Positions 39,528 to 43,114 of a stretch of DNA of 44,307 nt are shown in pieces. The DNA comes from a virus: positions 1-44,307 of IMG/VR virus record IMGVR_UViG_3300022891_000005. One strand, 5' to 3'. A program made the translations under genes and the position numbers. How positions within the stretch are numbered: position 1 is the first letter of the stretch; every line of letters starts with the position of its first letter. A model generated the notes under the pieces. The model did no database searches and had not been told where the DNA came from. It was given only the letters and a program-made list of their open reading frames with translations.

Positions 39528-40543
39528 GCACGCTCGGATCCCTCTGGACAGGCGCCGTCGCCTACGTCTCGCTCGGCGTGGGCGCCGGCCTGTCCATGGC
39601 TGGCAACCTGGCGGACACCTACCGCACCCGCGGCGCCGGCCAGGTGGACGCGCTGGACAAGATCCTTGCGCTCGCCTGGCCGGCGCTGGTCATCCTGGCC
39701 ATCGAGATGTTCGTGTCCGAGCGGTGGAAGCGCTCGGCCATGTTCCAGATCTGGCGGTGGACCGGCTGTCTGGCCATCGGCTCGATGGCCATGGTGGCCA
39801 GTTGGACACACCTGCACGATCTGTTGGCCAGTCGTGGCCAGTTGGCCATCGTGGCCATCCTCGGTCCGCTGGCCATCGACGGCATGGTCATCATGGCCAC
39901 CGGCCTGATCCTGTCCAGCCGTGGCCAACTGGCCACGGCTGGACAGTCTGGCCAACTGGCCACGGCGCCGGCCAGTGCGCCCACGGTTGGCCAGGCGCTG
40001 GCCAACAAGGACATGGCCACGTTGGCCAACTGGCCAACGGAGGTGGCCACGCTGGACGCGATCGTGCAGGCCGAAGCGCTCATCCGTGGCCAGGATCTGG
40101 CCAAGCAGGGTATAGACACACCGGCCAATCGGCCAACTGGCCATACCGAGCACACGCCGGCGGGCTGGACAGGGCCAGTGGCCAGTGCCGCGGATGTGGC
40201 CGCCTCCGAACTGGCCATGCGAGGCCAGGAACCGACGGTCGAGGCCGGCCAGTTGGCCGATGACCTGGACGCGTGGGAGCGCGGGGTGGACGCGGCGATC
40301 CATGACGCCGGCCAGGAGCTAGCCAGGCAGGCGGAGGCCGTGGCCAACGGGCATCTTGCCGAGGACCCGCCCGTGGTGCCCGCGGTGCCTCCGGCCGCGG
40401 CGCTGCTGATCCAGGAGTGCCTGGCCAAGCAGGATGCCAAGAGCGCCATCGATGCGCTGGTAGCCGCTGAGCACGGTGTCTCGCCGCGGCAGGCGAGGCG
40501 GTGGCGCGCAGAGGTTGCGCGCACGCTTCCTCCTCTGCTATAG
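39524..40543 (+). CDS. DUF2637/SpdB-like membrane protein
   Basis: Encodes 339 aa from GTG 39524. Four membrane helices lie at about 7-28, 44-62, 79-96 and 107-131. The segment ASWTHLHDLLASRGQLAIVA followed by LGPLAIDGMVI matches the DUF2637 signature of actinomycete plasmid/AICE spread (SpdB-type) proteins. Residues 135-280 are low-complexity and rich in GQLA/W/P encoded by TGGCCA repeats. The end (SAIDALVAAEHGVSPRQARRWRAEV) is a helix-turn-helix. It probably works with the FtsK/TraB-like protein at the membrane. The next promoter overlaps its stop. Confidence 0.75.
   Translation: MSTLGSLWTGAVAYVSLGVGAGLSMAGNLADTYRTRGAGQVDALDKILALAWPALVILAIEMFVSERWKRSAMFQIWRWTGCLAIGSMAMVASWTHLHDLLASRGQLAIVAILGPLAIDGMVIMATGLILSSRGQLATAGQSGQLATAPASAPTVGQALANKDMATLANWPTEVATLDAIVQAEALIRGQDLAKQGIDTPANRPTGHTEHTPAGWTGPVASAADVAASELAMRGQEPTVEAGQLADDLDAWERGVDAAIHDAGQELARQAEAVANGHLAEDPPVVPAVPPAAALLIQECLAKQDAKSAIDALVAAEHGVSPRQARRWRAEVARTLPPLL
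39696..40427. repeat. TGGCCA palindrome array 1
   Basis: About 27 copies of TGGCCA occur in 732 bases, against roughly one per few kb elsewhere in the window. They fall in all three reading frames (L-A, G-Q and W-P codings), with frequent spacing of 8-14 bases, so selection seems to act on DNA and not only on protein. Confidence 0.85.
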
Positions 40544-40544
40544 T
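40515..40544 (+). promoter_or_regulatory. TATAGT promoter overlapping upstream stop codon
   Basis: TTGCGC, 18-bp spacer, TATAGT; the TAG stop of the DUF2637-like gene lies inside the -10. The leader AGAGATATAAGGAACGAGCG resembles those at 38588 and 38847. Confidence 0.78.
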
Positions 40545-40575
40545 AGAGATATAAGGAACGAGCGAGGGAGCGGAC

Positions 40576-40758
40576 ATGGCGGACCAGAAGTACCCCCACG
40601 ACCTGACGATCAGCGAGCTGCGCAACGACCTGGAGCAGGCGCAGATGGCACTCACGGAGGCACTCGGCGCCGGCAACCGGACCATCGCCCACAATCAGGT
40701 GAACAGCATCATCGAGATCCAGCGGATGATCGAAGACCTTAGGGGCGAGAAGGCCTGA
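40576..40758 (+). CDS. small helical protein
   Basis: Encodes 60 aa after a GAGGGAG Shine-Dalgarno. It is almost wholly helical and acidic (ISELRNDLEQAQMALTEALG...NSIIEIQRMIEDLRGEKA), probably a coiled coil. It is a single-gene unit between a TATAGT promoter and a terminator. The function is unknown. Confidence 0.72.
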   Translation: MADQKYPHDLTISELRNDLEQAQMALTEALGAGNRTIAHNQVNSIIEIQRMIEDLRGEKA

Positions 40759-40778
40759 ACCTTAGGCTGCCAGGGAAA

Positions 40779-40814
40779 ACAAGGGGGTCCACGCTTAAGC
40801 GTGGACCCCCTTGT
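40779..40814. terminator. 36-bp perfect palindrome terminator
   Basis: ACAAGGGGGTCCACGC, TTAA, and the exact complement; the centre is itself palindromic. It ends the 40576 unit. The last bases of its right arm (TTGT) form the -35 of the next promoter. Confidence 0.85.
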
Positions 40815-40839
40815 CGTGCCATGGTTCGTCTGCTATAGT
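40811..40839 (+). promoter_or_regulatory. TATAGT promoter, leaderless (gene at 40846)
   Basis: TTGTCG, 17-bp spacer, TATAGT, AGACAC, ATG. The -35 overlaps the preceding terminator arm. Confidence 0.75.
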
Positions 40840-41069: not shown

Positions 41070-41103
41070 AGAGGTAGCGATCAACGATCAGCAGGAGGTC
41101 ACC

Positions 41104-41238
41104 ATGCTCACTCACTTCGTCCGCTTCGTCCTCAGCGCCTGGAAGACCTGCGAGACCTGCAAGGGTTCCGGCCAGCACAACGGCAAGAAGTGCCCAGCCT
41201 GCAACGGCCAGGGCGGCATCAACACCGGCAACGTCTGA
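41104..41238 (+). CDS. DnaJ-type Zn-finger micro-protein
   Basis: Encodes 44 aa. A hydrophobic N-terminus (MLTHFVRFVLSAW) is followed by TCETCKGSGQHNGKKCPACNGQG, a pair of CxxCxGxG motifs as in DnaJ. It is similar to the 33991-34110 product but has the extra hydrophobic start. It has its own promoter, an AGGAGG and a terminator, so it is an independent unit. Confidence 0.78.
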   Translation: MLTHFVRFVLSAWKTCETCKGSGQHNGKKCPACNGQGGINTGNV

Positions 41239-41246
41239 CCTGACCA

Positions 41247-41289
41247 CCCAGAAGGGCCCGGAGAGGATTCCTCTCCGGGCCCTTCTGGG
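41247..41289. terminator. bidirectional terminator
   Basis: An 18-20 bp perfect stem (CCCAGAAGGGCCCGGAGA and complement) separates the convergent 41104 gene (+) and the FtsK-like gene (-). Confidence 0.9.
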
Positions 41290-41296
41290 CATCCCC

Positions 41297-43114
41297 TCAC
41301 GCCTTCAACGCAAGCATGCCCTCCCGCCAGTGGTACAGCGCGCCCATGTCATACAGCCTGGCCTCCGTCTGGCCATACGGCTGGCCATCCGGTTTGGCCA
41401 GCGGCTCCGGGAAGCCGGCCAGCGTGCTGGCCCGGCGCAGAGTGGCCAACGTGATGGCCATCGGCCCGTCCTGGCCAGGCAGATTGGCCAGCGCTTCGGC
41501 CAGTGTGACCGCACTGGCCAGCGCCGGCCGGGATTGGCCAGTGGCCACCGATGTCCAGGACTGGCCAAGGATCGGGCCAGTGGCCATGTCCAGGCCAGAG
41601 ACGATGGCCAGCGCTTCGGCCTCCGACAACCAGGGGACACGGAAGATCTCGAACTCGTCCGCTCTGGCCACTCCCCACACACCGCGCTCGCGCGACGTGC
41701 AGGCCACGTAGTCCATCGTGTCCACCAACATCTTCCAGAGCTTGCGATCCCAGCGCGCGATGAAGCGGCCACCCTGGAAGCTCTCCCGGATGTCACCGCC
41801 GTTGCCGCCGAAGATCGATGCGGACGCGCGCTGCGCCGCGACGATCACGTGCATCTTCAATTCGCGGCCCATGCACACGCTCTCCTGCATGGCCACGATG
41901 GCCGGCGACTGGACAGGCGGGTCCAGATCGGCCACCTCGAACGGTGCATCATCGGCCTGCGCCTGCTTGGCCGCGAGCATGATCTCTTTGCGCAGGCCGC
42001 GCCAATACCTGATCAGCTTTTTGGCCTGGACGTTGGCCTCTTCGACCATGATGATCACGCGACGCTGGCCGACGAGCTCCTCCTCCGGCAGCTCGATGCG
42101 TCGCTTGATCTCCTCGCCGATGGCCATCCACGTCTCATGCAGGTCGGCATCGCGGTACGCGTAGATCACTTGGTCTTTGCTGAGCTTGCCGCCACCCGCC
42201 CATCGCCAGTGCGAGAAGCGCTTCGGATCCAGGATGATTCCGCCGTCACCCTTCTCGATCCGCTGCACCATGAAGACGCGGGCAAGTACCGTCTTGCCGG
42301 TGCCCGCGGCGCCGGACATGAGGAAGTGGGGAGAGTCTTCGACCATGCTGACCTTGACGAGGTGGCCTTGCGCCTTGCGTCCGACGATCACCTCGTCATC
42401 CGCACATTCCTCGATGGCCTTACGCAGGCTGGCGAAGGTCACCTCCCCGGGCGGCAGCGGCGCGGAGGAGAGGTCGACGCAGACGTTCGTGCCTGCCTCG
42501 CTCCACTCCCCGCGTACGGGCGCGGGGATGCCGAGCCGAGCGCCGACGTTCTCGGTGAGGGCTGCCTTGGATCGCGGATTCAGGGGCACGTGCACGGGCA
42601 GATGCACGCGCACTGTGCCTTGCGCTTCCTTGCCCCAGTTGGGAGGAAGCTCGATCGCCTCGCGGCCGGCGCGTTTGGTGTAGCGGCCACCGGTGAGCGA
42701 GAACAGCACGCGCGCCGCGGGATCGACGTACTCGCGGTTCAGCCGGCCGCGGCGCAGCAGATGAACAAATGATCTGGCAACCCACCACATCGCAATCAGC
42801 CAGGTAGCAAGAGCCCAGGCGACGGCGATCTTCCAGCCGGCCAGAGGCAGCAGGGCCAGCGGCACGGTCAGGGCAGCGTGCCGGCGCGCGAGACGCTGCC
42901 AGATCGGACCGCTCAGCGTCATGTACGGGCGAGCGCGGTAGTCGATCGTGGCGCGGTGCAGGAAGGTGGCGTTATCGCCGGGGCCGCGGAGCTGCTGGCC
43001 GGTGATGAGGTACCGGCCGAGGATGCGCAGCGGGAGCGGGACACGCGCGTGCTCGCCACGCCAGGAGATCAGTGGGGCCGAATTTTGAGGCACCTGATCG
43101 ACTCTAGCGCACAT
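41297..43114 (-). CDS. FtsK/SpoIIIE-TraB-like DNA translocase
   Basis: Encodes 605 aa. Membrane helices lie at about 80-92 and 94-115, then a basic linker and a RecA-like ATPase with Walker A GAAGTGKT (268-275), Walker B VIIMVEEA (353-360) and HVIVAAQRAS. Length and layout fit TraB/TraSA translocases that move double-stranded DNA between mycelia, more than chromosomal FtsK (no long linker). The last 110 residues, in the place of a gamma/DNA-recognition domain, are encoded by TGGCCA-rich DNA. The ATG lies inside a 22-bp inverted repeat. A packaging or segregation role is the alternative. Confidence 0.85.
   Translation of the reverse strand: MCARVDQVPQNSAPLISWRGEHARVPLPLRILGRYLITGQQLRGPGDNATFLHRATIDYRARPYMTLSGPIWQRLARRHAALTVPLALLPLAGWKIAVAWALATWLIAMWWVARSFVHLLRRGRLNREYVDPAARVLFSLTGGRYTKRAGREAIELPPNWGKEAQGTVRVHLPVHVPLNPRSKAALTENVGARLGIPAPVRGEWSEAGTNVCVDLSSAPLPPGEVTFASLRKAIEECADDEVIVGRKAQGHLVKVSMVEDSPHFLMSGAAGTGKTVLARVFMVQRIEKGDGGIILDPKRFSHWRWAGGGKLSKDQVIYAYRDADLHETWMAIGEEIKRRIELPEEELVGQRRVIIMVEEANVQAKKLIRYWRGLRKEIMLAAKQAQADDAPFEVADLDPPVQSPAIVAMQESVCMGRELKMHVIVAAQRASASIFGGNGGDIRESFQGGRFIARWDRKLWKMLVDTMDYVACTSRERGVWGVARADEFEIFRVPWLSEAEALAIVSGLDMATGPILGQSWTSVATGQSRPALASAVTLAEALANLPGQDGPMAITLATLRRASTLAGFPEPLAKPDGQPYGQTEARLYDMGALYHWREGMLALKA
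41370..41670. repeat. TGGCCA palindrome array 2
   Basis: 14 copies of TGGCCA occur in 301 bases at the 3' end of the FtsK-like gene; only about two more occur in the rest of that gene. They lie in two reading frames (V/L/M-A and G-Q codings). Confidence 0.85.

Follow-up and report, generated by a model that had tools for sequence, protein, structure and literature searches.

TraB of Streptomyces reads 8-bp repeats in the clt locus (cis-acting locus of transfer) through a C-terminal winged helix, and the known clt loci, those of pSVH1, pJV1, pIJ101 and pWTY27, are 50–175 bp long, hold a few direct repeats and are almost all non-coding, with clt of pWTY27 extending 16 bp into traA (PMC3583192). 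SpdA2 of pIJ101 binds 12-bp palindromes, termed sps, inside its own gene, and its loss affects segregational stability; sps are present in 1–3 copies, and SpdA proteins of 117–163 aa have a putative DNA-binding domain at the N-terminus (PMC4170104). A third protein, SpdB2 of pSVH1, is a membrane DNA-binding spread protein that interacts with TraB and binds non-specifically (described in PMC4170104). Here we analyze a 44,307-bp record of a soil actinobacterial phage from IMG/VR (IMGVR_UViG_3300022891_000005, labeled G000; its full length is called the window), in which two dense arrays of the palindrome TGGCCA lie within a DUF2637-like gene and the gene for a neighboring FtsK-type translocase. 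We consider it fairly probable, from comparison of sequences, that both arrays make up a single protein-binding zone, acting in cis and specific to its element: an address like clt or a centromere, written into ~2 kb of the coding DNA of a DUF2637/FtsK module.

The arrays resemble clt and its TraB recognition sequences (TRS) in that short repeated words lie beside, or slightly overlap, the gene for an FtsK-like double-stranded DNA (dsDNA) translocase with N-terminal membrane helices, and in that the word changes from element to element. They differ in comprising about 41 palindromic hexamers over ~2 kb of coding DNA in two phage genes, mostly the DUF2637 gene. Compared by description, they are like sps in being palindromes in the coding region of a gene for a DNA-binding protein of an actinobacterial mobile element, where we infer that DUF2637 does the binding, but there are 20–40 copies of 6–8 bp words and the protein would be a membrane protein with a C-terminal helix-turn-helix (HTH). 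Also by description, DUF2637 occupies the same place in its module as SpdB2, a membrane DNA-binding partner of an FtsK-like translocase, but no array has been reported for SpdB2, whose binding is described as non-specific. The window arrays thus appear to join the clt/TraB and sps/SpdA2 ideas yet to be a member of neither, because they hold 20–40 copies per gene, occur in phages, change their word and involve a family without known function.

The window, which carries portal, capsid, terminase, amidase, primase and helicase genes, contains 57 copies of TGGCCA, compared with 12.4 ± 3.0 (maximum 22) expected from dinucleotide shuffles. Array A (39696–40427) holds 27 of them, inside the DUF2637-like gene (39524–40543, plus strand; 339 aa, start most likely GTG at 39524), and array B (41370–41670) holds 14, in the last third, at the 3' end, of the convergent translocase gene (41297–43114, minus strand; 605 aa), which has two further copies at 41890 and 42121. 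These exact counts are identical to those of an earlier sequence-only reading of the window, which had also described the remaining copies as scattered and had offered equal hexamer density elsewhere as a refutation. Measured against a shuffled background, the 16 copies outside the two arrays are indeed scattered at chance density. With the first 39 kb as reference, TGGCCA exceeds every other hexamer in enrichment by a wide margin, in array A (27 versus 0.27 expected) as in array B (14 versus 0.11), and near-variants are enriched within the DUF2637-like gene as well (7 TGGACA, 10 CGGCCA).

Several reading frames are used, as that reading had stated. The sites are divided 20/6/1 among frames in the DUF2637-like gene, where they encode (L/V/M)A-x, x-GQ/GH and WP, and 11/5/0 in the translocase gene. 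In synonymous shuffles that preserved protein and codon usage, array A reached 10.1 ± 2.1 copies (maximum 16) and array B 4.9 ± 1.5 (maximum 10); in a repeat run, none of 1000 shuffles reached 27 for array A. Because picking the best hexamer post hoc can give z of ~7 for ordinary open reading frames (ORFs) too, we built the case on local density, frames and conservation rather than on z alone.

The sites show neither 10.5-bp phasing nor regular iteron spacing, only the 3-bp periodicity of coding DNA. TGGCCA is palindromic, TGGACA variants are mixed in orientation, and each genome has one cluster. The FtsK-orienting polar sequences (KOPS) and SpoIIIE recognition sequences (SRS) are polar and genome-wide; the arrays share with them the many copies of a short word for an FtsK-type pump but differ in their palindromic or mixed-orientation words and single local cluster. 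Because the words are symmetric or mixed in orientation and lack helical phasing, the arrangement suggests a densely packed landing area instead of a directional signal or ordered iteron. A directional, KOPS-like use of the words was considered and is unlikely for the same reason of orientation.

We compared the window with eleven relatives found by translocase sequence (51–79% identity) and two more found by profile. Most have 16–30 TGGCCA per 600–800 bp, at the translocase end, in the DUF2637 gene or in both. Arrays lie in the same two genes in twelve or more phages whose translocases are 25–79% identical, with the site positions shifted; in marked alignments, relatives carry sites at different alignment positions and in different frames. 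L017 and L141 have LA/MA/WP sites in one further place, the N-terminal membrane segment of their translocases. Nearly all carriers have the array in the DUF2637 gene, and only some have one in the translocase gene; L142, L145 and L227 have an array in the former and none in the latter. We then compared codons in seven phage pairs, each counted in both directions, with nominal p-values. Among codons for identical residues, 84% were unchanged when the third base lay inside TGGCCA versus 60% outside, in the translocase and in DUF2637 alike. Retention inside versus outside was 94% versus 69% for GCC, 97% versus 75% for GTG and 88% versus 68% for GGC, with no excess for CTG, as expected because CTG and TTG both preserve the motif. 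Synonymous bases are protected inside the sites, an outcome in favor of the sequence-only reading, and purifying selection acts on the DNA word TGGCCA itself. Across the phages compared, the DUF2637/FtsK zone is under selection, at the level of DNA, to carry numerous copies of a single short word. In Streptomyces phage Dagobah, the nearest isolated phage by translocase, the region lacks a comparable array, and a tblastn search with the window DUF2637-like protein against phages and plasmids gave no match.

The word itself changes between relatives. In L016, whose translocase is 79% identical to that of the window, the same DUF2637 gene carries 21 TGGACA/TGTCCA, partly as true 42-bp tandem repeats, and 10 TGGCCA; L020 has 15 CGGACA and 9 TGGACA, and the DUF2637 gene of L303 has 14 TGGACA. 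The sequences show that the array word is replaced between relatives at the same genomic place.

When all of IMG/VR was scanned for three TGGCCA close together, 99 stretches were returned. The densest G+C-rich ones were DUF2637 genes of window relatives or of distant phages, namely G003 (translocase 28% identical), G004 (25%), G005 and G002, the last with 39 TGGCCA in one DUF2637 gene beside a different, TraB-like translocase. The exceptions were G001, discussed below, L071, whose array is weaker, and several lower-G+C contigs. Five of the latter (L065, L089, L110, L123 and L136), viral contigs of 42–51% G+C, have 9–13 TGGCCA per 600 bp over apparently non-genic ORFs, and L065 and L110 share identical site spacings of 7, 14, 39, 13, 8 and 22; they are possibly another repeat family. 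Among the matches listed, a scan for TGGACA gave the DUF2637 gene of L303 (Pfam 2.8e-14), and a scan for GGTGCACC gave L400, whose protein has no Pfam match and is 36% identical to an array-bearing protein of a Streptomyces goshikiensis plasmid. Starting from TGGCCA or, among the matches listed, from TGGACA, the scans ended mostly at DUF2637 genes. A profile search of a genome collection gave one match, a 6.4-kb contig of a Streptomyces metagenome-assembled genome that encodes a translocase of 25% identity and has about 31 TGGCCA within and near a DUF2637 gene; it is possibly a misbinned phage contig.

On some chromosomes and plasmids the module comes with other words. Among 296 genomes belonging to the same phylum, Actinomycetota, 21 yielded DUF2637; 14 controls yielded none. 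None of the 60 chromosomal DUF2637 loci read has a TGGCCA array, and four have another word inside the DUF2637 gene: GGTGCA(CC) (GGTGCACC) in L227 and L229 (20 and 21 copies, versus 7.9 and 6.8 in synonymous shuffles), CGGTGC in L228 and CGGACA in L219. We looked at eight plasmid regions with a gene for a relative of the window translocase. In that of S. goshikiensis, the gene adjoining FtsK contains 21 CGGAAC, versus 5.3 in shuffles. The product of that gene is only DUF2637-like, since it has no Pfam match and is linked to the family through L400 and, weakly (E = 0.002), L228. DUF2637 adjoins FtsK on linear plasmids, and two of these have module arrays outside annotated genes: CTGCAC repeats between DUF2637 and FtsK in pFRL3 (L484, 3178–3876), and GACCGGAC repeats downstream of the FtsK-like gene in pPR2 (L479, 6680–6836). 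These arrays of other words suggest that the DUF2637/FtsK module is often accompanied by an array of a word of its own, within its genes or next to them. The TRS word of pSVH1 is GACCCGGA, to which the pPR2 word is similar. Separately, an S. subrutilus plasmid (L485, 1001–1700) has GGCAAGCC and ATCGGTCA repeats, possibly replication iterons, flanked by genes for a replication-relaxation protein and a DUF402 protein.

We next consider what the two proteins may be. The window DUF2637-like protein matches Pfam DUF2637 (PF10935) with E = 0.0014 and 20.2 bits, under the cut-off of 22.8, and the aligned homologues from G002, G003, G007 and G307–G309 exceed that cut-off. Its AlphaFold model has four long predicted membrane helices (residues 3–144), a low-confidence linker (about 143–230) and a confident C-terminal three-helix bundle of HTH type (about 290–334; codons 40391–40525, plus strand; pLDDT 94–97), with the recognition helix around SPRQARRWR. 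For this C-terminal domain there are weak Pfam matches to HTH_23 and HTH_Tnp_1 in 9 and 5 of 14 homologues, clearer HTH matches in the L303 protein, and structure matches to HTH that are insignificant yet consistent. The linker, home of most sites, varies from near zero to ~90 residues across homologues. We therefore regard DUF2637 as a predicted four-helix membrane protein with a flexible, array-encoded linker and a C-terminal HTH, and this modeled HTH as the likeliest reader of the words. The neighbor is a predicted FtsK-type dsDNA pump: its model, with long N-terminal helices, matches TcpA and FtsK motor domains (Foldseek E = 7e-14 to 1e-10) and Pfam FtsK/TrwB is sub-threshold, so that it has the FtsK/SpoIIIE-type motor and N-terminal membrane helices of the TraB/clt systems.

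On the reading that we favor, the words would be bound in many copies by the DUF2637 HTH, which would keep phage DNA on the membrane close to the pump. The phage genome, for example that of a prophage kept outside the chromosome, would then be moved or segregated by the pump through the septa of a hypha or into an adjacent cell. The sites of the array occupy parts of the proteins that can accommodate them, namely the linker, membrane helices and variable C-terminal segment, so that the coding sequence was bent to hold them. RacA/ram chromosome anchoring in Bacillus, whose ram sites are distributed across the origin region, offers an analogy, without relationship, of an HTH protein tying DNA with many short sites to the cell envelope; the profile match was insignificant (E = 0.073). 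In a fuller and more tentative form, which we rate as possible though short of probable, this would be a self-addressed anchoring and transfer module: the DUF2637 membrane HTH would read dozens of copies of one element-specific palindrome in its own and its partner translocase's frames, and word and reader would co-diverge across actinobacterial phages, plasmids and integrative elements, so that each element had an address of its own for segregation or for passage between cells.

The sequence-only reading had proposed a clt-like recognition zone in the coding DNA of a functional pair; that part is well supported, and its suggestion that the translocase is the reader is not established. Under the latter explanation, which we judge rather unlikely, the translocase would load at the array, recognizing it through its C-terminal (winged-)helix domain in the manner of TraB and TRS, with DUF2637 only an accessory membrane protein. 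The FtsK/TcpA-like motor, the position of array B inside the translocase gene and the presence of the FPEP-type C-terminal domain in L228 too are in its favor, as are the precedents that the TraB C-terminal winged helix reads repeated 8-bp motifs and that pWTY27 TraA binds a clt overlapping its own gene (PMC3583192). However, in G002 the same TGGCCA array adjoins a translocase of a different C-terminal type, the arrays of L142, L145 and L227 are absent from the translocase gene, and the sites are symmetric or mixed in orientation. The domain itself (TLRRAS..GFPEP..ARLYDMGALYHW; codons 41315–41480, minus strand), though conserved in the alignment, has no significant family or structure match; the nearest is an insignificant one to a MerR-type DNA-binding domain, and a MerR/excisionase-like winged helix is putative, not confirmed. 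We hold it less likely than DUF2637 to be the array binder.

It is improbable that the reader of the sites is a host factor or some third protein of the phage, acting in nucleoid organization, partition, replication or packaging, with their place in the module incidental. TGGCCA is common to very distant phages, as expected for a common host protein, iterons and par sites this dense exist, and the G001 array comes without a DUF2637 gene on its fragment. But the word is swapped in a relative as close as L016, which points to an element-encoded reader, unrelated words recur as arrays in DUF2637 genes, and the sites have neither helical phasing nor regular iteron spacing. A search for ParA with PF13614 gave no match in the window or in 11 related records, other ParA-type families not having been searched.

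We give almost no weight to TGGCCA as a by-product of protein-level selection for LA/GQ-rich linkers with biased codons: the sites do cluster in linkers and membrane helices, parts that are free in composition, and some arrays include true tandem repeats (42 bp in L016), but the three frames, the excess over synonymous shuffles and the protected synonymous positions largely refute protein repeats as the cause, as the sequence-only reading had argued, and in L016 and L020, where the word is another one, the peptides differ as well. The hexamer TGGCCA includes GGCC, being an MscI/BalI-type site, and some bacterial methyltransferases are reported to target it; a restriction, modification or uptake-type signal, of which that reading had listed a modification target as an option and for which no evidence emerged, is nonetheless very improbable, since there is a single dense zone per genome rather than a genome-wide distribution, the word turns over to the non-palindromic TGGACA and CGGACA, and no methyltransferase was noticed near the array, a dedicated search not having been run.

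Several observations weigh against DUF2637 as an anchor that reads its own array. The membrane topology is taken from an AlphaFold model with a pTM of 0.33. In G001 (L139, 2013–2415), 24 TGGCCA in 400 bp lie inside two tiny ORFs, each with one membrane helix, that neighbor a serine integrase, and the 18.5-kb fragment has no DUF2637 gene. Most chromosomal DUF2637 genes (about 56 of the 60) lack any array, and the arrays of L018 are weak. The recognition helix, S-x-R-T-A-R-R-W, is nearly identical across carriers of TGGCCA, TGGACA and CGGACA, and L303 combines a different recognition helix with a TGGACA array, so that the carriers compared do not establish that word and HTH vary together. Finally, no tyrosine integrase was found in the ~43-kb phages; with no integrase or ParA found, they fit an extrachromosomal prophage but fit a virulent phage equally. 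The DUF2637/FtsK pair on linear plasmids is consistent with the former.

DUF2637 is a common actinobacterial family with no assigned function, and the arrays point to the DNA words that its members, or their translocase partners, are likely to read, which makes a direct binding test possible. The natural word swaps in close relatives can be used to map reader and site. The locus would also be a striking case of coding DNA bent to carry a dense regulatory or mechanical DNA code.

Beyond the array-bearing genes, a small gene at 43636–44106 (plus strand; PGVYLYRT..WGYAGKSRNL) has a hydrophobic stretch at its C-terminus and looks GIY-YIG-like by eye; its product has no Pfam match, and counterparts lie near the translocase in L141, L143, L144 and L145. 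The module center between the arrays (40544–41296, plus strand) holds three tiny genes, at 40576–40758, about 40846–41037 and about 41104–41238. The third has a DnaJ-like CETCKGSGQHNGKKCPACNGQG zinc-finger motif, and a similar ORF lies near the L016 array. The element GCTATA[G/C]TAGA occurs eight times in the window, at 22191(−), 35783(+), 38595(−), 38854(−), 38900(+), 40537(+), 40832(+) and 41062(+), with a TTGCG-like box upstream of most copies. These elements are probably phage promoters, and the last three stand directly before the tiny genes between the arrays.

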